A stretch of DNA of 36,764 nt from Candidatus Dormiibacterota bacterium (GTDB lineage Bacteria; Chloroflexota; Dormibacteria; Dormibacterales; Dormibacteraceae): positions 1-36,764 of the forward strand of contig CATPBP010000014.1 in the NCBI GenBank assembly GCA_955652675.1. The letters run 5' to 3'. Below are positions 8,289-23,505 of this stretch, piece by piece; the first letter of the stretch is position 1; each line of letters begins with the position of its first letter. A model generated the notes under the pieces. The model was given only the letters and a program-made list of their open reading frames with translations. It was not told the DNA's origin and ran no database searches. Made by a program: the position numbers and the translations under genes.

Positions 8289-9200
8289 TCAACGAACGCC
8301 TAAGGCCCGCTCGCGGTGTATGGCGACTCCAAGGACGACCAGGCCGATCCCGAGCACCTCCTCGGGCTTCGGGAGCTGGGCCAGGACCAGGACCCCGATC
8401 ACGGTCGCGGTGGCTGGCAGGAGGGAAAGCAGCAAGGCGTAGGTGGCCCGGGAGAGCCTGGCCATGGCCAGCTGGTCAGTCACGTAGGGGATGACCGAGG
8501 AACAGAAGCCCACCCCAACTCCCGCCGCGAGCAGAAGTGGGCTGGTGAAGGCCGGGGCGGCTCCCGCGACCCCGATCGGCATGACGACGACCAGCGCGAT
8601 CAGCATCGCGGCTCCCAGTCCGTCGACCCCCGCGCTGCTTCCGCGCTGGGCGATCCGATGCGCCAGAACGATGTAGAGGACGAAAAGGGCGGCGTTCGCA
8701 AAGGCCAGGGCGAAGCCGAGAGGCTGGCCGGCGAGGCGCACGTTGGTCAGCAGGCACACCCCGCCCACAGCCAGCGCCAGAGCCAGGAGGTTGCGAGGGG
8801 TGCGCGCACCAGTGGCAGCGAGCGCGATGGGCCCCAGGAACTCGATGGCCCCGACCGTGCTGAGCGGCAGCCGGGCGATCGCCAGATAGAACGAGGCGTT
8901 CATGACTCCGAGGACGGTGCCCAGGGCAACAAGGACCCAACGCTCGCTCCAAGGGAGGCTCTGGAACAATCGCCACGGTCGCCTCCAGGCGGCGAACACC
9001 ACAGCGGCGCTCGCGATTCGCAACCAGGCCACCCCCAGCACGTCGATCCGCGAGAAGAGCAGCACGGCGAAGGCCGGTCCCAGATAGTGGAAGACCGCGC
9101 TGACCAGGAAGTAGGCATGTGGTGGGAGGCGGCCCGCCACCCTGCCGGCGACGGGGCGAGCGCTCGCGGCGTCGGATGCCTGCGCGGGAGTGGAGGCCAT
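8289..9200 (-). CDS. EamA-family amino acid/metabolite exporter (RhtA-like)
   Basis: A 303-residue inner-membrane protein with ten hydrophobic segments arranged as two EamA repeats (about 30-150 and 165-295). The segment SSVIPYVTDQLAMARL followed by ALLLSLLPATATVIG strongly resembles the threonine/homoserine exporter RhtA group. The chosen ATG at 9200 gives a normal N-terminal tail; an in-frame ATG at 9236 is possible, and neither has a good ribosome-binding site. It is transcribed divergently from an Lrp/AsnC regulator 62 nt away, an arrangement common for amino acid exporters, so substrate-responsive control is likely. The substrate is inferred, not shown. Confidence 0.88.
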   Translation of the reverse strand: MASTPAQASDAASARPVAGRVAGRLPPHAYFLVSAVFHYLGPAFAVLLFSRIDVLGVAWLRIASAAVVFAAWRRPWRLFQSLPWSERWVLVALGTVLGVMNASFYLAIARLPLSTVGAIEFLGPIALAATGARTPRNLLALALAVGGVCLLTNVRLAGQPLGFALAFANAALFVLYIVLAHRIAQRGSSAGVDGLGAAMLIALVVVMPIGVAGAAPAFTSPLLLAAGVGVGFCSSVIPYVTDQLAMARLSRATYALLLSLLPATATVIGVLVLAQLPKPEEVLGIGLVVLGVAIHRERALGVR

Positions 9201-9262
9201 GCAACAATGCTGTAAGGCGGAAGGCGTTCCGTCCATGGCTAGTCAAAAGTTAGGAGCGGTAT
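9201..9262. promoter_or_regulatory. Divergent intergenic region with inverted repeat, candidate Lrp operator
   Basis: This 62-nt gap separates the divergent EamA and Lrp/AsnC genes. It holds an inverted repeat CGGAA-GGCG-TTCCG at 9218-9231 and a shorter ACA...TGT symmetry near 9204-9213. Lrp/AsnC proteins usually bind imperfect palindromes beside their own gene, so these are candidate sites. AGGAG at 9252-9256 is the ribosome-binding site for the TTG start at 9263. No convincing -35/-10 pair is seen. Confidence 0.35.
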
Positions 9263-9757
9263 TTGGCTGGAAAATCAAGGTCCGGTGCACGGCAAGCCTT
9301 AGCCAATGGCACGGCCCTTCTGGACCAGGTGAACCTCAGGCTCCTCGAGCTGCTGCAGCAGGACCCACGGCTGACGATGGCCGAGCTGGCCAGACGCGTG
9401 GGCATGTCAGCCCCGGCGGTCACCGACCGCGTCCAGCGCCTGGAGCAGGGGGGCGTGATCGCCGGCTACCGGTTGGACGTCGACCCGAAGGCGCTCGGTC
9501 TGCCGATATGCGCCTACGTCCGGGTTCGGCCGGGGCCGCGCCAGCTCCAGAGGATCGCAGAGCTCGCCGTTGCTACACCCCAGGTGATCGAGTGCCACCG
9601 GATCACCGGGGAAGACTGCTTCCTGCTGAAGGTCCGGGTCGCGGCGGTCGATCAGCTGGAGACCATCCTGGATCGCTTTCTTTCCTACGGCCAGACCACC
9701 ACCTCGATCGTGCAGTCCTCGCCCGTGCCGCCTCGATCGCTTCCCCTGGTTCTCTGA
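9263..9757 (+). CDS. Lrp/AsnC-family transcriptional regulator
   Basis: A 164-residue regulator. The N-terminal helix-turn-helix reads NLRLLELLQQDPRLTMAEL then ARRVGMSAPAVTDRVQRLE (about residues 23-63), the standard AsnC-type pattern. The C-terminal part (about 80-155) is the RAM/ligand-sensing domain, with ICAYVRVRPGP, VIECHRITGEDCFLLKVRV and LETILDRFLSYG. The TTG start at 9263 is supported by AGGAG six nt upstream. It is divergent from the EamA exporter, which it probably controls in response to an amino acid. Its stop overlaps the ATG of the following universal stress gene by one base, so the two are co-translated. Confidence 0.92.
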   Translation: MAGKSRSGARQALANGTALLDQVNLRLLELLQQDPRLTMAELARRVGMSAPAVTDRVQRLEQGGVIAGYRLDVDPKALGLPICAYVRVRPGPRQLQRIAELAVATPQVIECHRITGEDCFLLKVRVAAVDQLETILDRFLSYGQTTTSIVQSSPVPPRSLPLVL

Positions 9758-10242: not shown

Positions 10243-13188
10243 TCAGAGGACCTGGCGCCTGGCCAGTTCCTGGAACTGCCCGGACTGAGCCAGCAGCTCT
10301 TCGTAGACGCCGCTCTGGACTATGCGGCCGTCCACCAGGACGACGATCCGGTCGGCATGCATGATCGTGCTCAGCCGGTGCGCGATCACGATCCTGGTCG
10401 CCCTCAGCGCCTCCAGGGCCTGGCTGACAATCGCCTGGGTTTCGTTGTCCAGGGCGCTGGTGGCCTCGTCGAAGAGCAGGATGCGAGGCCGCTGCACGAT
10501 TGCCCGGGCGATCAGGAGCCGCTGCCGCTGTCCTCCGGAGAGTGTGGAGCCCCCCTCCACGATGAAGGTCTGCATGCCCATGGGCATGGCGCGGATGTCC
10601 TCGTCCAGCCCGGCCAGCCCGGCGGCCTCCCAGGCGTCGTCGAGCGTGAGCGTCGAGGTGCCCACGATGTTCTGCAGCACCGAGCCTGGAAAGACCCGGC
10701 TGCTCTGCAGGACGACGCCCAGCTGCCGCCGGACCGCCTGCAGGTCGAGCGTGGCGAGGTCGTGGCCGTCGTAGTGGATGGATCCGCTCTCGGGCGTCTC
10801 GAAGCCGAGAAGCAATCGCATGATGGTCGACTTGCCCGACCCGGAGGGTCCGACCAGGGCCAGGAACTGGCCCTGCCTGACCCGGACCGATACGTCGTCC
10901 AGCACCAGAGGTGCTTCGGGCAGGTAGCGAAATCCGAGACCCGTCAGCTCGATGTCGCCCCTCAGGGCCCCCGGATGCACCCGCTCCCCGCTGACTTCGG
11001 GCATCGCCGCGAGGATTGGACGCGCACTCTCGTAGAGCGGGACCGTCTGGGCCAGGGTGACGGCCGCCATCCCGAGGCCCAGCATCGCCACCAGCCCCTG
11101 CGTGAAGGCGGTGGTGAAGGCGATGAAGGTGCCTGTCTGCATGCCGGCCCCGAAGAGCGAGAAAGCCCCGAAGATGAGCATGGTCGACGCGAGCGGCAGG
11201 GCGCTCAGGATCACATTGATGCGGATGGTCGTGAACTGCGCGCGGGTGGAGAGCCGGCTCTGCTCCGATTGGTTCTCGGCCCAGACCGCGTAGGCTCGCG
11301 GCTCGGCGCCGGCAACCCGGATCTTCGCCATCCCGGTCAGGAACTGGAGTGTGATACCCGCCAGCCTGTTCTGCACCAGGTTGAGGGCGCGCAGTGTCCG
11401 CAGCTGGCGTCCGATCAGCGCGAAGCTCAGGCCCAGCCCGACCGCCACCATGGCGACGGCGACCAGCGCCAGACCCACGTTGTAGAAGAACAGCAGAACG
11501 AAGCTGAAGAGCGAGAAGACGCCGGTCAGCACCGAGGTGGAGACGGTGCCGGTCAGGATCTGACGCAGGTTCGTGAGGCCCATGGCGCGGTTGGCCAGGT
11601 CGCCCGCCGTGTAGCGCCGGAAGAACGGCGCCGGCAGCTTCAGCAGCCGGTCCCAGAGGGCGGACTGCAGGGAGGTGTCGGCGCGGCCTTCGGCTCGCAC
11701 CTGGACGACGCCGCGGGCGATCTGGAGAGCCCCGGTGGCGAGCCCGGTGATCGTCAGCGCCACGACGGCCAGCAGCAGCTGAGGCTGGTTGCCGGTCGGG
11801 AGGATCTCGTTGAAGAGCGGGGCGGTGATGAGCGGGAGGGCCAGCGCCAGCAGGCCGCCGAGCAGGCCGTAGAGACCCATCATGGCCAGGTCGCGGCCGG
11901 CGTCACGGAAGCTGAAGGCGAGCAGCTGTCGGGCGTTGACGGGCCGTTCGGGGAAGTGGCGGTAGAGCACGTGGGCGTCCTGCTCCAGCGTGCCGGCCAG
12001 CCGAGCGTCGAGGCGGGGCCTCTCGGCGCGGCCCGGTTCGGCCAGCACGTAGCCGGAGCGCGGCGCCGGGAGCACCGCCACCGGCCGCAGGGCGCCGTCC
12101 CGACGAACGTAGCCCAGCAGCGGCCCCTGCTCGCGCCTCCACCAGTCGCCGGAGAGCCTGACCCGGCGGGTGCGGATTCGGGAGGCGCGGGCGAGGGCCT
12201 CCAGCGGATCCAGTCCCCGATCGCCCGCTTCGGCCAGGTTGGGAGCAGCGACGGGGAAGCCCTCCACCTCGCCGATCAGGCGGCAGGCGGCCAGGAGCGG
12301 GTCCTCGGGCGCCCCCTCCGGCTTGGCAGGCGGGTGAGGGTCGAAGCTTCGGGCCAGCCGCCAGGAAGCCTCGACCAGATGCCGCCGGTCGGATTCGGAG
12401 CTTCGCGCGAGGCGTTCCGCCTCCCCGCTCTCGACCTGGTCGACCCGGCCCCGAACCTCGCCCAGCGTGCGTGCGTGGAAGAGCTCCAGTCCGGCCGCTA
12501 GCTCGGGTTCGGAGGCCGGCTGCACCGCCTCGCCCGCGACCACCGGAAGGGCTTCTGAGGCGACCAGCCAACCCGACGGCGACAGAGGGAAGGCCGGCAG
12601 GTCCGGCGTCAGGGGGAGGCTGTCGCGGCCGAGGAAGTGCGCGCTGCCGGCCAGAGTCCTCAGCCATACCAGCCCTTCGCCCGCCCGGGCGATGCTTCCG
12701 GCCGCCAGCCTCTGTTCTCCGGCTTTCAGCGGATCGGCGTCGCGCGGTTCGGGCCCGGCGGCTGCCGCAGCGGCCGTGGTCAGGCTCTCGATCCAGGCCA
12801 GGAGCTGGGCGCCTCCGGCGCTGTCCAGGACCAGTCGAAGGACCTGGTTCGCCTCGATCTGCACGACAGCGCTCTCGGGTCCTCCGCTTGCCACCAGGTG
12901 AAGGCCGGCCTCGCCGCCGGCCCGTCCGGTACCCAGCAGGAGGTCGCCCTCATCCACCCTGAAAAGCGGAGCTCGGGCGGCGGGCTCGTCGCCGCCACCG
13001 GAGCGGACGGCGAAGACCTGCAGGGGCCCGCGGCTGACCAGCCAGGCCAGGCGGTCATCCTGCAGCGACAGCGGCCGGTTGCCGGCCGCCGGCAGGGTGA
13101 CCCCGCCTTCCACGAGAGCCGACCAGGGATCACGCGCGGTGGCGGCCGAACCGACCGAGGTCCGCCGGCTCTTGGTCTCTCCGCTCAT
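10243..13188 (-). CDS. NHLP-type bacteriocin export ABC transporter, second permease/ATPase subunit
   Basis: A 981-residue protein of the NHLM ABC2 type found in NHLP-leader peptide clusters. Residues 1 to about 400 form a soluble region with a cyclic-nucleotide/cupin-like start (VFAVRSGGG, FRVDEGDLLLGTG) and a C39-like segment lacking an evident catalytic Cys. About 430-720 is the ABC exporter membrane domain with six helices. About 745-981 is the ATPase: Walker A LVGPSGSGKST (K786), Q-loop VVLQSS, signature LSGGQRQR, Walker B ILLFDEATSALD and the switch His in IAHRLST. Its ATG overlaps the stop of the C39 exporter (13185-13188). It probably pairs with that protein for export of the mature lanthipeptide. 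Confidence 0.93.
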   Translation of the reverse strand: MSGETKSRRTSVGSAATARDPWSALVEGGVTLPAAGNRPLSLQDDRLAWLVSRGPLQVFAVRSGGGDEPAARAPLFRVDEGDLLLGTGRAGGEAGLHLVASGGPESAVVQIEANQVLRLVLDSAGGAQLLAWIESLTTAAAAAAGPEPRDADPLKAGEQRLAAGSIARAGEGLVWLRTLAGSAHFLGRDSLPLTPDLPAFPLSPSGWLVASEALPVVAGEAVQPASEPELAAGLELFHARTLGEVRGRVDQVESGEAERLARSSESDRRHLVEASWRLARSFDPHPPAKPEGAPEDPLLAACRLIGEVEGFPVAAPNLAEAGDRGLDPLEALARASRIRTRRVRLSGDWWRREQGPLLGYVRRDGALRPVAVLPAPRSGYVLAEPGRAERPRLDARLAGTLEQDAHVLYRHFPERPVNARQLLAFSFRDAGRDLAMMGLYGLLGGLLALALPLITAPLFNEILPTGNQPQLLLAVVALTITGLATGALQIARGVVQVRAEGRADTSLQSALWDRLLKLPAPFFRRYTAGDLANRAMGLTNLRQILTGTVSTSVLTGVFSLFSFVLLFFYNVGLALVAVAMVAVGLGLSFALIGRQLRTLRALNLVQNRLAGITLQFLTGMAKIRVAGAEPRAYAVWAENQSEQSRLSTRAQFTTIRINVILSALPLASTMLIFGAFSLFGAGMQTGTFIAFTTAFTQGLVAMLGLGMAAVTLAQTVPLYESARPILAAMPEVSGERVHPGALRGDIELTGLGFRYLPEAPLVLDDVSVRVRQGQFLALVGPSGSGKSTIMRLLLGFETPESGSIHYDGHDLATLDLQAVRRQLGVVLQSSRVFPGSVLQNIVGTSTLTLDDAWEAAGLAGLDEDIRAMPMGMQTFIVEGGSTLSGGQRQRLLIARAIVQRPRILLFDEATSALDNETQAIVSQALEALRATRIVIAHRLSTIMHADRIVVLVDGRIVQSGVYEELLAQSGQFQELARRQVL

Positions 13189-15368
13189 CCGGAAGCTACC
13201 AGGCGGGCGTACACGCCTTCCAGGCCCTTCAGCTCGTCGTGGGTGCCGCGCTGGACGACCTTGCCCTGGTCGAGCACCAGGATCTCGTCGCAGTCCCGAA
13301 TCGTGCTCAGGCGATGGGCGACGATGACACAGGTACAGCCCCGCTCGCGCAGATGGTCGTCGATCTCCTTCTCGGTACTGGGATCAAGCGCCGCGGTGGC
13401 CTCGTCGAGGACCAGGATGCGGGGATCGCCGGTCAGCGCCCGGGCGATCTCCAGCCGCTGGCACTGACCGCCGCTGAAGTTCCGACCACCCTCTTCGACC
13501 GGACTTGCATAGCCGCCCGCGCGACCCGCGACGACGTCGTGCACCTGCGCGTCGTGGGCGGCGGCGACGTAGCTCGCTTCGGGGATGGTCTCTTCCCACA
13601 TCGTCAGGTTCGCCGCGACAGTGCCCTCGAAGAGGAAGATCTCCTGGTCCACCGCGGCCAGTGAGCCCGTGATGGTCGCCCGCGGGTACGCGTCGCGGGG
13701 CTTGCCGTCGAACAGGATCTCGCCCTCCCAGGGTTGGTAGAGACCTGTGATCAGCCGGGCGACCGTTGACTTGCCGGAGCCGGAGCCCCCCACCAGCGCG
13801 ACGCGGGCCCCGGGGTTGAGCTTTACGCTCAGCCGCTCTATGAGCGGAGGGGAGAGCGGGCTGTAGCCGAAGGTGACTTCGCGCAGCTCGAGGGCGCCGG
13901 CCAGCTTCCTGGGGGTGGATGAGCCGTTCGAGGGGACGGTCAGCACGGGATCTGCCGGGTAGCGGAGGACGTCGTCCAGCCGAATCATGCTGCCCTCCGT
14001 CTCCTGAACGGTGGCGCCCAGGCTGACGAGCTGGGTGATGGGCTGGGTGAAGCTGGCCATCAGTATCTGAAAGGCGACCAGCGACCCGATGGAGAGGCTG
14101 CCCACGATCACCCGCTCGCCACCCAGGCCCAGGATCAGGACGGTCGTGAGCACGGCCAGGAGGGCGGGGATCGCGCCCAGCACCTGGGTGGAGACGCCGA
14201 GCTCCTGCTGGGCGTTGAGCGCCTTGGCCTGGAAGCCCGACCAGCGGGAGAAAAAGTCAGAGTCGGTCCCCGTGGCCTTCAGCGTCTCTATGTTCTGCAG
14301 GCCGCCGAAGGCGGTGGAGGTGGCGTTGCCCTGCTCCTTCAGAAGCCGCTGGTTGGCGGCGCGCCGCCGCTCCGAGATAACCCGCAAAGCGACGAAGTTC
14401 AGGAGGCCGACCGCGATGCCGACCAGGGTGAGCACGACGTCGTACTGGAACATGACCGCCGCGTAGAAGACGATGGTCAGCAGCCCCACCATGGCGCTGG
14501 CCAGCTCGCCCGAGAGGAGCTGCGCGATGCGGGTGTTCAACTGCGCCCGGCCGGCAACGTCGCCGGCGAAGCGCATGTTGAAGAAGGTCATGGGCAGGCG
14601 CAGGACATGCCAGAAGTAGCGCCCCGAGCCGCTCAGTGAGATCTTCTGGCCCAGCCGGTACAGGTGGAACTGCTGCAGCCAGGTGAGCAGGACCAGGAGC
14701 ACCACCGTGGCGGCCATTCCCTCCAGGAGCGGGACCAGCCAGTCGTGGACGCCCTGCACCAGGTACTCGTCGATGAAGGTCCGGGTGAAGGCGGGTGCGA
14801 GGAGCCCGGGGACCACCAGGAGCAGGCCGGCGGCGACGACGAAGGCGACCGCGACGCGAGAGCCGGCCAGCCGGCTGCGCAGGCCGGTCCGGAGGTTGTA
14901 CGGCCGGCCGGCCTTCTCGAAGGACGGCTCGGGCGCGAACGTGAGCGCGATGCCGGTGAACGACTCGTCGAACTCGGCGTCGGTCACCGTCCGCCGTCCC
15001 GACGCCGGGTCGTTGACGTACACCCGCCCCCGACCGAAGCCCTCGACCACCAGGAAGTGGTTGAAGTTCCAGAAGACCACGAACGGGGTCTGAAGCCGGT
15101 GCAGGTCCGCGGGCTCCGCCTTGAAGGCGCGGCCCTGGAGCCCGTACTTCTCGCCCGCCTTGATCATGTTCAGCGCGTTGCTCCCGTCCCGGGAGACCCC
15201 GCAAGCCTCGCGCAGCTCCTCCAGGGTGGTGAAGCGGCCGTGGTAGGCGAGGACTATCGAGAGGGCGGCGGCGCCGCACTCGACCGCCTCCATCTGGAGG
15301 ACGGTTGGCGTCCTGACTCGGCGCTGCCGGTGGGGGGTCGCTGTCTGACCCCCGGCTGCCGCGCTCAC
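13185..15368 (-). CDS. NHLP-type C39 peptidase/permease/ATPase bacteriocin exporter
   Basis: A 727-residue peptidase-containing ABC transporter. The C39 domain (about 20-150) has Q25 and the catalytic Cys in QMEAVECGAAAL (C31), the His in NFNHFLVVEG (H104) and the Asp in NDPASG (D120), so the cysteine protease triad is complete. It would cut the precursor after its double-Gly motif. Six membrane helices (about 165-450) follow, then the ATPase: Walker A LVGGSGSGKST (K533), signature FSGGQCQR and Walker B ILVLDEATAALD. The GTG start overlaps the HlyD-like stop; its stop overlaps the next gene's ATG. It acts in the inner membrane on the LanM-modified peptide. Confidence 0.95.
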   Translation of the reverse strand: MSAAAGGQTATPHRQRRVRTPTVLQMEAVECGAAALSIVLAYHGRFTTLEELREACGVSRDGSNALNMIKAGEKYGLQGRAFKAEPADLHRLQTPFVVFWNFNHFLVVEGFGRGRVYVNDPASGRRTVTDAEFDESFTGIALTFAPEPSFEKAGRPYNLRTGLRSRLAGSRVAVAFVVAAGLLLVVPGLLAPAFTRTFIDEYLVQGVHDWLVPLLEGMAATVVLLVLLTWLQQFHLYRLGQKISLSGSGRYFWHVLRLPMTFFNMRFAGDVAGRAQLNTRIAQLLSGELASAMVGLLTIVFYAAVMFQYDVVLTLVGIAVGLLNFVALRVISERRRAANQRLLKEQGNATSTAFGGLQNIETLKATGTDSDFFSRWSGFQAKALNAQQELGVSTQVLGAIPALLAVLTTVLILGLGGERVIVGSLSIGSLVAFQILMASFTQPITQLVSLGATVQETEGSMIRLDDVLRYPADPVLTVPSNGSSTPRKLAGALELREVTFGYSPLSPPLIERLSVKLNPGARVALVGGSGSGKSTVARLITGLYQPWEGEILFDGKPRDAYPRATITGSLAAVDQEIFLFEGTVAANLTMWEETIPEASYVAAAHDAQVHDVVAGRAGGYASPVEEGGRNFSGGQCQRLEIARALTGDPRILVLDEATAALDPSTEKEIDDHLRERGCTCVIVAHRLSTIRDCDEILVLDQGKVVQRGTHDELKGLEGVYARLVASG

Positions 15369-16195
15369 CGCGCCTCTGGCAGCACCAGGCTGATCGGGTG
15401 CTGCTGCGAGACGGCGACCGACACCGAGGCGAGCGTGCCTGCCGTGATGACCGCGTCCGGGCCCCGCGACGACGACCAGCGGTAGCCGCTGGGCGTCCCA
15501 GCATCCGGCTTGAGCGCCAGGTGGACCTCGACCGGGGAGCTGCCCGCCTGGTTCAGGAAGAGCTGGACCAGGTTCTGGTTCTGGAGCAGCCGCATCATGC
15601 CCGGCGGGCTGGAGAGAAAGGGCGCCACGTAGTCGACGCTGGCCAGCATGTAGCCGTACTGCTGGGGGCTGTAGCTGCTGGGCGCGACCTCGGCCTGCAT
15701 CCCGGTCCTGATCTGCTTGCCGACCGAGGCCGGGAAGAACACCACGAGCTCGAGCGGGTTCTGGCTCTCCTCCAGGTTGAGGACCCCGGCGGCGACGGAG
15801 ACGAGCTGACCGGGATTGACCAGGAGCTCGAGCACCTTTCCGCTGTAAGGGCTGATCACGTTGATGGGAGAACCGTCCGCACCCGGCAGCGGCGTCACCT
15901 GGGCCACGACCTGGCCCTGGGACACCTGCTGGCCGACCCCTACCGAGACCGACTGAACCTGGCCGGCCGAGGGAGTCTGGACGGCGAAGAGACCGCCGCC
16001 CCGGATGAACATGCCCTGCTCGCTGATGCTCGTGGCCACCGTGCCGAAGAGGCCCCAGACCACCGCCGAGCCCACGACGGCTCCGATCGCCAGCAGCGCG
16101 ATCCAGCTCCGGCGCGAGGTTATGCGCATGAGCTGGTCCAGCTGCTCCGGCGAGGAGAGGCGGTCGAGCGAGCGCTGTCTGAAGATCGTGCCCAT
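15365..16195 (-). CDS. HlyD-like membrane fusion protein of NHLP bacteriocin export
   Basis: A 276-residue adaptor protein of the NHLM HlyD type. A cytoplasmic N-terminus (about 1-30) leads to one membrane helix (SWIALLAIGAVVGSAVVWGL, about 31-50). The lipoyl/barrel-sandwich half-motifs are VQTPSAGQVQSVSVGVGQQV and INVISPYSGKVLELLVNPGQ, typical of this family. The open frame extends further upstream, but ATG 16195 overlaps the LanM stop (ATGA) and gives the expected N-terminus. It is shorter than classical HlyD and lacks a long coiled coil, as is usual for NHLP clusters. It probably bridges the two ABC subunits to the outside. Confidence 0.9.
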   Translation of the reverse strand: MGTIFRQRSLDRLSSPEQLDQLMRITSRRSWIALLAIGAVVGSAVVWGLFGTVATSISEQGMFIRGGGLFAVQTPSAGQVQSVSVGVGQQVSQGQVVAQVTPLPGADGSPINVISPYSGKVLELLVNPGQLVSVAAGVLNLEESQNPLELVVFFPASVGKQIRTGMQAEVAPSSYSPQQYGYMLASVDYVAPFLSSPPGMMRLLQNQNLVQLFLNQAGSSPVEVHLALKPDAGTPSGYRWSSSRGPDAVITAGTLASVSVAVSQQHPISLVLPEAR

Positions 16196-19100
16196 CAGCT
16201 CGGCTCGAAGACGAGGACGCAGGGCAGCTCCGGCTGGGCCAGCCTCAGGAGCTGGTAGCCGATGCCCGACAGGCCCTGGAAGAACCCGGGCGCGTAGTCC
16301 TCGGAACCCACGCCCGGGGCAAGCCGGAAACGGCCTCCGGGCCGCTCTACCAGAGTCCTGCCGGCAAGATCGCGGGCGGCCTCTTCCAGCTCGGGACTGG
16401 CGAGCACCAGGCCGCCGAGGTTCAGAGCTTCGACGCGTCCCAGGGCGCCGCAGCAGACCTGGTCGAAGAGCCCTCGCCCGGCCGCCTTTGTGGTCTGCAT
16501 GGCAGCCGCCAGGTCGGCTCGCACCTGAGCCGAGTCGAGCACCCCGAGGCCGGCCAGGCGGCCTAGCCCGACGCCCGCGGCACCGTGGCACCAGGCGCTG
16601 ATCACGCGCACTGGAGCGGACGCTCCCGGTGGCGACGGTCGCAGGTCGGGCCAGTTGGCCTCGTCCGGGCGGAAGATGGCTGCCTCGTAGGCAATGCCCT
16701 CCTCCGCCGCGGCAAGGAAGTCGGCCCTTTCGGTGACCACCGAGAGTCTGGCCAGGGCGTAGGCGATGCCTGCCGCGCCGTGGGCGAAACCCGCCAGCGG
16801 CTGCTCGCCGTGAGACTTCCAAGCGCGCGGACCGGAGGGCGTCGGAGCGCGGCGGTCGAGCAGATGCTCGCCGCACCAGAGCGCCCTGATCAGGGCCTCT
16901 TCGCTGCCGGTCGCTTCGTGGAGCGAGAGCAGCCCGAGCAGGGCGCCAGCCGCCCCGGCCACCACGTCGAGATCGCGGTCGGCCGCGACGCGGTCCCTCG
17001 TGATCCCGGACGCTGCGGCCTGGGCGGCGCGGACCAGGTCCGGCTCTCTGAGAAGCCGGGCGCACGTGACCAGGCCGTAGACGATCGAGGCGCAGCCGGC
17101 GGCTCCGCCGATGCCGGCTTCCTCCACGACGTTCTCGGGGCACTCGCGGAGCGCGGAGAGGACCGGGCTCAGCGCTCCCAGCGCAAGCTCCCGGAACCTT
17201 GGATCTGCGGTGACCCAGGCGGTCGCGGCGAAAAAGACGGCGACGCCGCACTGCCCACCGTAGAGATCCAGGCCGACCGGCCGCAGCGAGGTGCGGCCGG
17301 TCCGATCGTCGAACCCGAGACCGATCCACGCCAACCCACCGTCAGGCGCCTCGATCGCCAGGCGCTCCAGGCGATCCGCGATCACCAGCGCCTCTTCGGC
17401 GAAGGCGAGGTAGCCAGGGGATCCCGTGCCCTCCTCGCCTGCGTCATCCGGGTCCGCCGGACCTGCGTCATCGGGGCCGGCCGGAACCTCGAGGGCCATC
17501 GGAGCCCGGGCCTCGAGGGCGAGCCGGACCAGGGTGGCCTGCCGCTCCCTATCCGCCTGGTCGAACCCGCGAATCCGCTCCACAGCGTGCTCCAGCGGAG
17601 AGGCGGCGAAGACCTCGGCGGTGACCTCGGCGGTGCCGCCGCGGCCGGTTTCGATGGTCCGGCCCATGGCGGGCACTGAGAAGCGCGGTATGTCACCCTG
17701 CTCCAGGCTGGCCTGCTCCTCGGGGTGAAGCGCCCGGAAGGGGTGGGCCTCCTCTGTCTTCAGAAAGACGCGAGCCGAGCGCTCCAACTCGAGACTAAAG
17801 TCGGCCCCGTCTCTCAGCGCTCCCGCAGCCATTGCGGCGTCGAGGATCCTCTGGTAGACGAGCGTCGGGCGGAAGATGAAGCGGACGCTCGTGTCCTCGA
17901 GCGCCGCGAGGGGCCCGTCTGGCGCCAGCATGAGGTCTCGGCGCTCCTCCAGCAGCCGGTGCATGTCGCGAAAGCCTGCCTCGACCTCAGAGGAGAACTG
18001 CCAGGGAAGCAGAGTCCGCTCGCCCAGCCGAACCGCGTTCACAGGGACCGGCAGATCCTCGAACACGCGGTCCAGGGTCATGGCGTCGGTGTTCACGCGC
18101 TGCCAGCGGGGCGTGAGGATGACGGACTCCCGTTGGTCCACGCCGCCCAGGCCGCTGATGTCGATGCTCCGCCCCTCTCCTGCACCGGTCCAGGCGGGAA
18201 GGAAGTCGGATTCCAGCACCGATTCCTCCATCCAGCGGCGGGCCGCGGTTCGCGCCCCCGCCACCTCGTCTGGGCCGCCGTGGGGCTGCACCCGCGGGTG
18301 GAGCAGGGTCTCGGCGTCGACCAGGACAGGCTGCTCCCCGGCCGCCACCACGTTGTGCTGGTGACAGTCGGTGCTGCCGAGGCCGTAGAAGAGGGCGGTC
18401 AGCATGCCTGCCCGCCGAAAGTAACGGCGGCCGGCGGCCTCGTCGGCCACGCCCTGCTGCTCCACCTGCTTCACCCAGCCGTACCCCGGTCGAGCCAGGA
18501 CTTCGGCAGCCTGCAGCGGGAGGTCGACGCCCTGCTCGTTGATCCACGCGACCAGCTGCGCGTAGCCCCGCTCGAGACCGACGTCGCGCGGCTTGTAGAG
18601 GACTTTGAGACCGGAGGCGAAGGTCAGGCGAAGCACCGAGCGGCCGCCCTCGTGAGGGTCGGACAAGCCGGTCGCGATGGCCTGCACCGAGCCCTGGCCG
18701 GCGCCGCCCGCGAAGGCCGCTTCCAGCTCCGGACGGTCGGTCTCCAGCCGGCGAATGAATTCTGCGGTGGACTCGATCCAGGCCAGGGTGGCCCTGGATG
18801 TCAGGCGGGCGAGCGCCGGGTACTCTTCCAGCAACCCCTCCAGCCCGCCGTCCAGGACTTCTCGGACGAAGGCGCGGTATTCGCTGTCGGTTTCACCGGC
18901 CAGCGCCACCAAGCGACTGAGGCCGGTGCCTGCACCGCCCCGCCGGATGGCGAACTCCATGTAGAGCAGCGGTGCGCAGAGAGCGCTGAGGCGGGTGAGG
19001 AGCGCTCGCTCCAGACCCAGGCGAGCGCCGCTGCCGAGGCCGCCGGTGTTGGGATGGACGAACGCATAGAGGTTCGCGGCGGCCGTCTCCAGGAAGGGTT

Positions 19101-19485
19101 GGAGGACCTCCTGGAAGGGGATGGCAGGCTCGAGCGTCAGCGCGTCATGGGGGTCCCCGTCGCCGGCCGCGGCTGCGGCACGCGCGAGCACCAATTCCAG
19201 CAGTGACGCCCAGGGGGGTGTCGGCTCCGGCTGCGAGGTTGGCTGGCCGAGAGCGCTCAGCGCGCTCTCGGTGGAGAGGCCGTCCCAGGCCAGACGGCGT
19301 TCGAGGATTGACGGCTCGCCGGCGGCCGCGACCTGGCACCATCTGTGCAGCCGTGCCCTGGCGAGCCGGCCGTCGCCGGAGGTCGCGACGACACCTCCCA
19401 GCCGCTCTCGGAGCGTGCTGGCGCGCGTCACGACGCCGGGCAAAAACCCGGACGGGAGGAGTGGCGAGACGATTGTGGTGGACAC
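16195..19485 (-). CDS. lanM: Class II lanthipeptide synthetase LanM, CCG-type
   Basis: A 1096-residue bifunctional enzyme that dehydrates Ser/Thr in the precursor and forms (methyl)lanthionine rings. The N-terminal dehydratase (about 150-720) has the kinase-like active site motif STDCHQHN (D373, H375, N378) and VLVDAETL (D390, E392). The C-terminal LanC-like cyclase (about 735-1090) has the HG motif in GFAHGAAG (H902), SAWCHG (C966) and VCCGALG (C1011, C1012, G1013). In most LanMs the last motif is CHG; a CCG motif, giving three Cys zinc ligands, marks the ProcM-like group known for relaxed substrate use. The start is GTG 19485, with a weak ribosome-binding site. It lies 93 nt after the precursor gene, with a hairpin between, and overlaps the HlyD-like gene. 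Confidence 0.96.
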   Translation of the reverse strand: MSTTIVSPLLPSGFLPGVVTRASTLRERLGGVVATSGDGRLARARLHRWCQVAAAGEPSILERRLAWDGLSTESALSALGQPTSQPEPTPPWASLLELVLARAAAAAGDGDPHDALTLEPAIPFQEVLQPFLETAAANLYAFVHPNTGGLGSGARLGLERALLTRLSALCAPLLYMEFAIRRGGAGTGLSRLVALAGETDSEYRAFVREVLDGGLEGLLEEYPALARLTSRATLAWIESTAEFIRRLETDRPELEAAFAGGAGQGSVQAIATGLSDPHEGGRSVLRLTFASGLKVLYKPRDVGLERGYAQLVAWINEQGVDLPLQAAEVLARPGYGWVKQVEQQGVADEAAGRRYFRRAGMLTALFYGLGSTDCHQHNVVAAGEQPVLVDAETLLHPRVQPHGGPDEVAGARTAARRWMEESVLESDFLPAWTGAGEGRSIDISGLGGVDQRESVILTPRWQRVNTDAMTLDRVFEDLPVPVNAVRLGERTLLPWQFSSEVEAGFRDMHRLLEERRDLMLAPDGPLAALEDTSVRFIFRPTLVYQRILDAAMAAGALRDGADFSLELERSARVFLKTEEAHPFRALHPEEQASLEQGDIPRFSVPAMGRTIETGRGGTAEVTAEVFAASPLEHAVERIRGFDQADRERQATLVRLALEARAPMALEVPAGPDDAGPADPDDAGEEGTGSPGYLAFAEEALVIADRLERLAIEAPDGGLAWIGLGFDDRTGRTSLRPVGLDLYGGQCGVAVFFAATAWVTADPRFRELALGALSPVLSALRECPENVVEEAGIGGAAGCASIVYGLVTCARLLREPDLVRAAQAAASGITRDRVAADRDLDVVAGAAGALLGLLSLHEATGSEEALIRALWCGEHLLDRRAPTPSGPRAWKSHGEQPLAGFAHGAAGIAYALARLSVVTERADFLAAAEEGIAYEAAIFRPDEANWPDLRPSPPGASAPVRVISAWCHGAAGVGLGRLAGLGVLDSAQVRADLAAAMQTTKAAGRGLFDQVCCGALGRVEALNLGGLVLASPELEEAARDLAGRTLVERPGGRFRLAPGVGSEDYAPGFFQGLSGIGYQLLRLAQPELPCVLVFEPS

Positions 19486-19510
19486 AGTGATCTTGTGTTG
19501 GTCAACGGGG

Positions 19511-19549
19511 CCGGCGGCGCTGTAACAGTTGGTTACTGGGCGCCGCCGG
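19511..19549 (-). promoter_or_regulatory. Long stem-loop between precursor gene and lanM
   Basis: Arms CCGGCGGCGC (19511-19520) and GCGCCGCCGG (19540-19549) are perfectly complementary over 10 bp. The loop holds a further GTAAC/GTTAC pairing, so the hairpin is very stable. It lies in the 93-nt gap between the precursor stop and the LanM start. No T-run follows on the transcribed strand, so a partial terminator, an RNA processing site or an mRNA stabiliser is more likely than a full terminator. RiPP operons often use such an element to make more precursor than enzyme. Confidence 0.6.
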
Positions 19550-19578
19550 GCTCCTATTGGTGTGTGTTCGCTAGGCCG

Positions 19579-19872
19579 CTAGCAGCTGCACTGGTTGCTG
19601 CTGCTGGACCAGGTGATCCCGCCGCCGGCGACCGCGCCCACCTCCTCCTCTGAGAGCTCGCGAGAGCCCGTATCCGCGGGAGGCAGCACGAGGTACATGG
19701 TGCCCGGGGTCTCTTCGACGACCTCGATGCGCACCGTACCCGGCAGCGAGACGCCTAGCACCTGCTGCAGCGCCCCATGTGGGTCGGCGATGAGCTGACT
19801 CCGGAAGGACTCGTCCTTCATGGCCCGCTCCACAACCCTGGCTTCCATATCGCTTCGAAAATCCGCAGCCAT
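19579..19872 (-). CDS. NHLP-leader lanthipeptide precursor peptide
   Basis: A 97-residue precursor. Residues 1-84 are a nitrile-hydratase-like (NHLP) leader: AMKDESFRSQLIADPHGAL, then VLGVSLPGTVRIEVVEETPG, TMYLVLPP and the acidic ELSEEEVGAVAGG, which match the family pattern (kA-x-DexFRxqLxaDP, LPxxvxVxVvEeTpxtxyLVLPp, ELsdeEL-x-xVaGG). After the double Gly comes the core GITWSSSSNQCSC, with Thr87, Ser89-92, Ser96 and Cys95/Cys97. ATG 19872 is chosen over an upstream in-frame ATG because AGGAG stands 6-7 nt before it. It is the first gene of the lanthipeptide operon; LanM is expected to dehydrate the core and the C39 exporter to cut at GG. Confidence 0.94.
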   Translation of the reverse strand: MAADFRSDMEARVVERAMKDESFRSQLIADPHGALQQVLGVSLPGTVRIEVVEETPGTMYLVLPPADTGSRELSEEEVGAVAGGGITWSSSSNQCSC

Positions 19873-20196
19873 GTCTACTCCTGAAGTGGATGTGACCCGG
19901 CGGTGTTCGGCCATGCGCCGAGGGCCACCGCTGGCCGCTGGAAAGGCAACCGCAGTGTCAGTGGACGAGGAGTGCCGTTCCTGTTAACCGGATGCGGTAT
20001 TTCGCGAACGATCCGGCGACTGCGGCGAGGTACCCCCTACCCCCGCCCTCCAATGACCCCCACCCCCGGCCCACGGCCGGGTACTCCCCCGACTTCCCGG
20101 TCCGACTTCGCGGGGGAGAGAAGGGAGGACTGATCTTGTATTCAAAACCGGCCCGCAAAGCGGGCCGGTGCTAACCTGCGTCGTCCTCGTCACCGC
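19873..20196. promoter_or_regulatory. Divergent intergenic region between precursor operon and LLM gene
   Basis: This 324-nt stretch without a convincing gene separates the leftward lanthipeptide operon from the rightward LLM oxidoreductase gene and must contain both promoters. I see AGGAG before the precursor ATG, and three palindromes in the right half: CCCGGCC-CAC-GGCCGGG (20065-20081), CTCCCCCG...CGGGGGAG (20084-20118) and a 9-bp perfect hairpin at 20148-20168. No clear -35/-10 pair stands out on either strand. A shared control region would fit co-expression of the LLM enzyme with the peptide cluster, but this is inference. Confidence 0.5.
20148..20168. repeat. Perfect 9-bp hairpin, possible leftward terminator
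   Basis: CCGGCCCGC-AAA-GCGGGCCGG forms a perfect 9-bp stem with a 3-nt loop. Read on the minus strand it is followed by TTTTGAATAC, so it looks like an intrinsic terminator for leftward transcripts. It sits 28 nt before the ATG of the rightward LLM gene, so it could instead be a 5' untranslated hairpin of that gene. It would insulate the peptide operon from leftward read-through. Confidence 0.5.
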
Positions 20197-22281: not shown

Positions 22282-23505
22282 ATGCCCTCGCAAGCCGGGG
22301 ACATGATAGGCGCCGGCAGGCAGCGATTGGGCGCCGAGTCCACCGTGGGCGACGCCGTACGCGCTACGGCTCCGTTGGGCTACCCGGCCGGCATCTTCTC
22401 GGCTGAAGGCCTGGCCCGCGTCGAGGCGGTCGCCGACCAGCTGCCCGGCAGGCTGACCTCCACCTTCGGCTTCGAGGTCGAGCTTGGGAAGCCGCCCGGC
22501 GGCGCAGATTTCGCCCTGGCTGTGACCGGCCTCCACGGCGGTCGCGAGATGCTTGCCGGCAGCTCGGATTTCGAGTTTCGGCTGGCCTCCTCTGAGCAGC
22601 CGGCCTGGGCTGCCGTGCGCGCGCTCAGCCAGGCCTGGGCGGATCCCCTGTCAGGCCTGGACGCCGAGCTCCACAACCTGGCACTTGAGTTCGACCTCAC
22701 CGAGGGCGTGGAAGGAGTGCCCCCGCCCAACGTCTTCCTGGGAGCCCGCTCTGGGATCTCGGCGGACAGCCCCATGGACCGCCGCCGGGAGGAGAGGAGC
22801 TGGGCCTGGCTCTTCGACGCTGCCCTACCCGTCCTCCGCGGACGACTATCCAGGAGCCAGCGCGACACTCTGGGCCGCTGCTTCCATTCCCTGCCGTCGG
22901 GGTCGCGTGCCTTCCAGATCGGCGTGATGCTCGCTCGCCCGGTAGAGGCGCTGCGGGTGTGCATCCTCGGCCTGAGCTACGACAAGGTCTCCGGGTACCT
23001 CGAGAGCATCGGCTGGCCGGCGGACCCACAGGAGCTGGATGAACAGGTGGCGCCCCTGCTGGAGCGGGCAGAGTCGGTGATCGTCGACATCGACGTCGCC
23101 GACTCTGTAATGCCCTCCATAGGGATCGAATGCTTCCTCGGAGAGGAGAACGCTGGAAGGGGCAACGGAGCGCCGGGGACGGAGGAACATTGGTCGAGGT
23201 TTCTGGAGCCGCTGGTGGAGCATGGGCTCTGCACGCCTGAGCGCCGGCAGGCGCTGCTCGACTGGCCGCTCACAGCTGTCGAGTCTCGCGCCCGCACCTG
23301 GCCGGCACATCTCAGGGACGCCTCGCGGTTTCTGGGGGCGGACCTCGAAAGCTCGCTGGTACGGGCGATGAACCACGTGAAGCTCAGCTGGCGACCGGAC
23401 CGCCCTCTGCAGGCCAAGGCGTACCTCCGCGTCCAGCACCGCTGGCGCCCCGCCGCCAGCCCCATCGGCCGCCCCCTGGTTCCCTCGCCCTTGCGGGGAG
23501 GGTAA
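22282..23505 (+). CDS. Unrecognised conserved-looking protein, about 400 residues
   Basis: A 407-residue soluble protein with no signal peptide or membrane helix. An N-terminal alpha/beta region (about 30-150, with FGFEVELGKPPGG and LHNLALEFDLTEGV) precedes a central segment RAFQIGVMLARPVEALRVCI, the motif VMPSIGIECFLGEE (about 275-288), a helical part LVEHGLCTPERRQALLDWPL and a C-terminal VKLSWRPDRPLQAKAYLRV. Codon use is like the neighbours. The first ATG (22282) lies 3 nt from the divergent toroid gene start; ATG 22303 is an alternative. The last residues (PSPLRGG) are encoded by a dispersed palindrome. I cannot name the family; pairing head-to-head with the toroid gene suggests a shared pathway. 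Confidence 0.75.
   Translation: MPSQAGDMIGAGRQRLGAESTVGDAVRATAPLGYPAGIFSAEGLARVEAVADQLPGRLTSTFGFEVELGKPPGGADFALAVTGLHGGREMLAGSSDFEFRLASSEQPAWAAVRALSQAWADPLSGLDAELHNLALEFDLTEGVEGVPPPNVFLGARSGISADSPMDRRREERSWAWLFDAALPVLRGRLSRSQRDTLGRCFHSLPSGSRAFQIGVMLARPVEALRVCILGLSYDKVSGYLESIGWPADPQELDEQVAPLLERAESVIVDIDVADSVMPSIGIECFLGEENAGRGNGAPGTEEHWSRFLEPLVEHGLCTPERRQALLDWPLTAVESRARTWPAHLRDASRFLGADLESSLVRAMNHVKLSWRPDRPLQAKAYLRVQHRWRPAASPIGRPLVPSPLRGG
23482..23502. repeat. Palindromic element at the 3' end of the unrecognised gene
   Basis: CCCTCGCCC-TTGC-GGGG-AGGG forms a near-perfect stem and includes the last codons of the gene ending at 23505. A sister copy with nearly the same sequence lies at 31385-31404. 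It resembles the intergenic REP-like palindromes whose translation gives a PSPLRGG-type tail. It may also serve as a terminator. Confidence 0.5.

Follow-up and report, generated by a model that had tools for sequence, protein, structure and literature searches.

The question raised by this locus is what becomes of a very short, serine-rich peptide that ends in Cys-Ser-Cys. The window, meaning the whole stretch of 36,764 nucleotides that was analysed, is the entire contig C14 of a Candidatus Dormiibacterota assembly that comprises 4.2 Mb in 283 contigs and is 92% complete. A first-pass annotation, made from the letters of the DNA, had read the peptide as a lanthipeptide core with more serines than its cysteines could engage. 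The core is real and is without likeness in the collections searched, and the cluster around it is likely to encode a lanthipeptide-terpenoid hybrid pathway, a variant of the peptide-terpenoid RiPPs that are already known. The precursor gene and its core are as follows:

19579-19872 including the stop codon, minus strand: precursor gene of 97 amino acids, with NHLP leader and core (TIGR03793; PF02979, 34.4 bits; Shine-Dalgarno sequence AGGAG)
19582-19620, minus strand: core GITWSSSSNQCSC, 13 residues by translation, or the 12-residue ITWSSSSNQCSC if cut after GGG

Residues 6-84 of the precursor score 82.0 bits with the TIGR03793 NHLP leader model (cut-off 50.9; E 2e-23), and this is the sole such match in the whole 4.2-Mb genome; the same search of 14 control genomes gave none. 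The mechanically called reading frame starts at 19914 and spans 111 amino acids. Upstream of the ATG at 19872, however, stands a good ribosome-binding site, CAGGAGTAGAC, and translation from this ATG yields the 97-residue protein in which the terminal residues are C95, S96 and C97, as numbered previously. The precursor ends in VAGG-GITWSSSSNQCSC-stop, so that the leader may be cut after GG to leave 13 residues or after GGG to leave 12. The core had been placed at 19579-19617, an interval that consists of the stop codon (19579-19581) plus twelve codons; it thus fits ITWSSSSNQCSC but not the full 13-residue form. Translation bears out the earlier count of six Ser/Thr-type residues (T3, S5-S8 and S12) and only two cysteines (C11 and C13), and with it the ceiling of two thioether rings. 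The core also contains one tryptophan, at position 4. A double-glycine site followed by a core with Ser/Thr and Cys is in keeping with a class II lanthipeptide precursor.

Searches of 110 genomes of the class, 300 genomes of the phylum, plasmid records and papers turned up no core similar to GITWSSSSNQCSC, and within that scope the suggestion that it is undescribed holds. Matches to TIGR03793 below the cut-off in the phylum are mostly longer open frames. Many of those inspected bear CTLCSCYPW, the metal site found in nitrile-hydratase-type enzymes, and they were excluded as precursors. It is very improbable that the core is an artefact of a frameshift or of assembly, with a different true core and an unreal CSC end. 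The sequence does come from one genome assembly and has AGC repeats in the core region, but errors in the length of whole-triplet repeats preserve the frame, no other frame offers a plausible core, the leader is intact up to its GG site and the contig ends are distant.

The precursor gene is the first of a complete class II lanthipeptide operon; lanM and the genes of an export system follow it on the same strand:

19486-19581, minus strand: spacer between precursor and lanM, including the stop codon, with a strong hairpin (RNA fold -35.5 kcal/mol, z -4.65)
16195-19485, minus strand: LanM class II lanthipeptide synthetase, 1096 amino acids (TIGR03897, 746 bits; LicM2 alignment; motif alignment)
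15365-16195, minus strand: HlyD-like secretion protein of the NHLP system (TIGR03794, 240.8 bits)
13185-15368, minus strand: NHLP exporter with C39 double-glycine protease, permease and ATPase (TIGR03796, 1039.6 bits; PF03412)
10243-13188, minus strand: second NHLP exporter permease/ATPase (TIGR03797, 859.7 bits)

The precursor stop and lanM lie 93 nucleotides apart, and from lanM onward adjacent genes overlap by 1 to 4 bases. The hairpin in the spacer is a possible attenuator that would lower lanM expression relative to that of the precursor. LanM and all three export components exceed their NCBIfam cut-offs, so that the NHLP leader is accompanied by its own export system (TIGR03794, TIGR03796 and TIGR03797). 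LanM harbors both a DUF4135 dehydratase domain (PF13575, 366 bits) and a LanC-like domain (PF05147, 169 bits), and its catalytic and zinc-binding motifs are intact: DxH, YKP, DxHxxN and FRPT in the dehydratase, and WCHG, CCG and HG in the cyclase. In the alignment, the third zinc ligand is a cysteine (CCG) where LicM2 has CHG. The leader, the GG site and the adjoining LanM and exporter together uphold the original identification of a lanthipeptide core. With a single LanM and a single NHLP precursor found genome-wide, the arrangement looks like a one-enzyme, one-substrate system.

The nearest LanMs found, those of genomes G146, G070 and G135, are 38-41% identical and have the CCG motif in common with it; when LanM was searched against the contigs of GTDB genomes, no relative came up. 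Cores with cysteine accompany the LanMs of G146 and G135. In G146, two NHLP precursors (L043:7770-8156 and 11695-12006) flank lanM and have the alike ends LVTWECCN and LVTWSCCHAN. Genome G070 encodes three near-identical NHLP-like peptides on separate contigs (L100, L101 and L102), each ending GGMVT-MPVCIIA.

Ordinary lanthipeptide maturation of the precursor is highly probable. LanM would dehydrate several of T3, S5-S8 and S12 and would close one or two lanthionine rings using Cys11 and Cys13, while the C39 transporter would cut the leader at GG and export the product. Such a scheme leaves extra serines, as the first-pass annotation had pointed out. This surplus is not chemically paradoxical. 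A gene of the LLM family, the family to which the LanJC reductases belong, starts 324 bp from the precursor, and CofE, for F420, is encoded in the genome:

20197-21447, plus strand: LLM-class oxidoreductase, candidate LanJC reductase, divergent from the precursor (PF00296, 135.7 bits; TIGR03619, 75.5 bits, below cut-off)

The name LanJC is given to LLM-type reductases that convert dehydroalanine into D-alanine, and one has been proposed for the class II lanthipeptide birimositide (PMC7268733). In massatide biosynthesis, MatR1 and MatR2 are LLM-type dehydroalanine reductases with an F420-binding domain (PMC11162475). The score against PF00296 places the window protein within the LLM family, which is vast, and no NCBIfam subfamily cut-off is reached. 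No match to it at E<=1e-20 was found in 40 relatives, and its plasmid matches are generic, at most ~30% identical among the matches listed. Since the genome has CofE, a supply of F420 for this enzyme is plausible. The LLM-family reductase would turn some of the leftover dehydroalanines into D-alanine, and such a reduction of the surplus serines appears a little more probable than its absence.

The real distinction of the core is likely to be its tryptophan, together with two likely tailoring enzymes, a prenyltransferase and a terpene cyclase; these were missed in the earlier reading, which was to that extent incomplete. Their genes lie beyond the LLM gene:

22303-23505, plus strand: ABBA-fold protein of 400 amino acids, candidate tryptophan prenyltransferase (AlphaFold2 model; best Foldseek matches all aromatic prenyltransferases)
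21319-~22281, minus strand: class II terpene-cyclase-like toroid protein (DLDD and two QW motifs; PDB profile matches)

The 400-amino acid protein finds no match among the Pfam, NCBIfam and PDB sequence profiles, including any solved prenyltransferase, and thus lacks sequence homology to the characterised ABBA/DMATS members. Its AlphaFold2 model (pLDDT 66.5, pTM 0.70), which is of moderate confidence (TM 0.4-0.5), has five alpha-beta-beta-alpha repeats that form the ABBA barrel, and the prenyltransferase fold is predicted from this model. With Foldseek, the model matches 48 PDB structures at E<=0.001, all of them aromatic prenyltransferases and mostly enzymes acting on indole or tryptophan; they include AnaPT, IptA, CymD and DMATS1, with a probability of 1.00. 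Five basic or Tyr residues that may bind diphosphate (R212, R218, K360, K372 and Y374) are invariant across eight sequences. The protein is therefore best described as a candidate that may work like an ABBA prenyltransferase, rather than filed as a member of that family. Its BFVD matches are uncharacterised cyanophage proteins of similar fold (S-CAM1, S-RIM44 and S-CAM3).

The terpene-cyclase-like protein was judged by its sequence, its single-sequence model reaching a pLDDT of 40. A profile of the protein and two relatives matches drimenol synthase (1e-14), AstC (5e-8) and squalene-hopene cyclase (1e-4) in the PDB. Homology to a terpene cyclase beta domain is accompanied by a DxDD-type motif and by QW motifs, namely QDEQGLW and QCGDGSW. 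The DLDD motif aligns on the DLDT of drimenol synthase, of which a second PDB sequence has DLNT. A protein of 598-604 amino acids found beside the cyanobacterial prenyltransferases was also considered as a terpene cyclase and was rejected, since no PDB profile matched it and what resemblance it has to the window protein is at the level of chance.

If both enzymes act on the precursor, the ABBA-type prenyltransferase would put an isoprenoid on Trp4, a step that we regard as probable, and the terpene-cyclase-like protein may then cyclise it, which is somewhat less assured though still favoured. The precursor, its leader, the LanM motifs, the exporter, the LLM family and the terpene-cyclase-like family are all read from sequence, and from them we infer the chemistry as a whole, including in what order the steps occur, how long the prenyl chain is, which sites are modified and that the divergent genes act on the precursor.

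The wider distribution of the prenyltransferase-like protein bears on whether it belongs to the pathway. Ten relatives were found: five in Chloroflexota (L063-L067) and five in the named records of Chamaesiphon polymorphus (L068), Pseudanabaena galeata (L106), Nostoc sp. UHCC 0926 (L107), Azospirillum sp. B510 (L108) and Acaryochloris sp. 'Moss Beach' (L109). A six-sequence alignment was too divergent for scanning, and a three-sequence version gave three loci. In Chloroflexota, cyanobacteria and Azospirillum alike, an NHLP or Nif11 precursor lies within 3 kb of the relative (8 of the 10); none was found near L063 and L064. All tabulated C-terminal parts of these precursors contain Trp or Tyr, as does the window core, with Trp being C-terminal in most and at position 4 in the window. 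Four of the ten loci (L068, L106, L107 and L108) also have a LanM.

Several of these loci are of note in their own right. NHLP precursors ending GLCCCW are found at L067:7101-13869 (G098) and L104:9613-10026 (G314), the former having as neighbours a YcaO protein, a Trp halogenase, a prenyltransferase-like protein and a terpene-cyclase-like protein with an NHLP-like leader domain at the start of its reading frame. In G157, the NHLP precursors (L065:7076-7648 and L066:11041-11487) have five residues past GG, MIIVW or MIIMW, and adjoin a methyltransferase and a prenyltransferase-like protein. On the Azospirillum sp. B510 plasmid (L108:5993-11988), eight NHLP open frames lie near a degenerate-site LanM, a YcaO protein and a prenyltransferase-like protein; seven of the eight end in Trp, the eighth being perhaps frame-shifted or cut.

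It could be argued that the product is a plain class II NHLP lanthipeptide, with dehydration, one or two rings and perhaps D-alanine, and that the prenyltransferase and terpene-cyclase genes serve an unrelated small-molecule pathway. The LLM, terpene-cyclase and prenyltransferase genes do sit outside the operon, in a separate, divergent, mixed-strand block, which counts against a hybrid product, and relatives of the terpene-cyclase-like protein are found among glycosyltransferase genes too (L110). Against this, relatives of the prenyltransferase repeatedly adjoin NHLP or Nif11 precursors, four times with LanM, and in the searched genomes of the same family neither lanM nor the prenyltransferase gene was found, as if the two had been co-acquired; the plain product is accordingly given a minority share of the probability. 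One relative of the terpene-cyclase-like protein adjoins the YcaO/halogenase/prenyltransferase NHLP cluster of L067. Another such domain lies within a 1218-amino acid TPR protein on a Nostoc sp. C052 plasmid (L110:10006-13662), with glycosyltransferase and sulfotransferase genes around it.

The searched genomes of the same family yielded neither LanM nor the gene for the 400-amino acid protein, nor the LLM gene, and for this reason the block looks acquired. The left flank of the window (8308-9741) is collinear with, and 76% identical to, G004 of the same family, which supports acquisition by a native chromosome rather than a contaminating contig.

A further alternative concerns the cysteines. 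In the Pseudanabaena, Nostoc and Azospirillum clusters the cyclase zinc site of LanM is degenerate, the Chamaesiphon LanM is without a LanC domain, and the cores of these four loci are mostly Cys-free. By analogy with such relatives, the window peptide might be dehydrated and its serines reduced while it stays largely uncyclised, with Cys11 and Cys13 free, in a disulfide or binding metal. This is improbable, as the window LanM retains WCHG, CCG and HG, like those of G146, G070 and G135, and the cores in G146 and G135 contain cysteine. Among the LanM-prenyltransferase clusters found, only that of the window combines an intact cyclase site with two core cysteines, and the reductase in the others is of a different type or none was seen. 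Comparison of the LanMs of L106, L107, L108 and L068 with those of the window and L043-L045 suggests a candidate rule, in which a core with Cys goes with an intact LanM zinc site and a Cys-free core with a degenerate one; the cases are few, and for L044 no core was found.

On balance, we lean towards the core being the scaffold of a class II NHLP lanthipeptide-terpenoid hybrid, a reading drawn from the genes of a single genome assembly. The more exacting proposal, that one 12-13-residue core from a non-cyanobacterial host combines thioether rings and D-alanine with an enzymatically cyclised terpene on its internal tryptophan, the prenyltransferase and terpene cyclase being separately encoded, is doubtful as a complete set. 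The finding gains interest because of the divergent neighbour genes. Peptide-terpenoid hybrids are a very recent type of RiPP, and the cluster is compact: it has a single substrate, and its candidate prenyltransferase and terpene cyclase are encoded by two different genes, which allows each step to be tested singly.

Members of the ProcM group have a three-Cys zinc site. The window LanM resembles ProcM in having CCG for CHG and in being paired with a large leader, but the prochlorosin system differs from the single precursor and single LanM found in this genome, and has a Nif11 rather than an NHLP leader. The Chamaesiphon polymorphus CCALA 037 (L068) and Pseudanabaena galeata pPg_03 (L106) clusters share with the window a LanM and a relative of the 400-amino acid protein (34-35% and 30-32% identity, respectively). 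However, their leaders are of the Nif11 type, their cores are Cys-free and end in IKW, their LanC domain is inactive-looking or absent, and their prenyltransferase-like part is fused to a 2OG-Fe(II) oxygenase; alongside LanM they encode a dehydrogenase that belongs, like LanJA, to the zinc-binding alcohol dehydrogenase family.

A report by Hubrich in 2024, in Chem 10:3224, is reported to describe peptide-terpenoid RiPPs in which a cyclised isoprenoid is carried on a peptide, with maturases that are reportedly cyanobacterial and commonly prenyltransferase-terpene cyclase fusions. These systems reportedly pair an NHLP (proteusin-type) precursor with a prenyltransferase and with a terpene cyclase, for all of which the window has counterparts or candidates. 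Compared by description, the window differs in its two separate genes, its Chloroflexota host, its candidate LLM reductase and a LanM whose cyclase site is intact.

An LLM-class oxidoreductase alongside a lanthipeptide pathway is also found with birimositide (PMC7268733), massatide (PMC11162475) and lexapeptide (reviewed in PMC10373908). There, dehydroalanine is reduced to D-alanine, whereas here that role is a candidate one, the protein being placed with LanJC by family; the precursors and hosts are also different. For prenylation, the counterpart is MppC, an alpha-beta-beta-alpha enzyme that carries out leader-dependent Trp geranylation of a lanthipeptide (PMC12715784, which cites Hubrich et al. 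2024) and is likened to the 400-amino acid protein by description rather than by sequence comparison. The mpp cluster and the window both have a class II LanM, a prenyltransferase of ABBA type (a candidate in the window), a short core with Trp and a large structured leader. In contrast to the window, the mpp cluster has a Nif11 leader and a 7-residue core, its modification is geranylation, and the main text of that paper names no terpene cyclase, the class of enzyme that in the window may cyclise the isoprenoid on Trp4.
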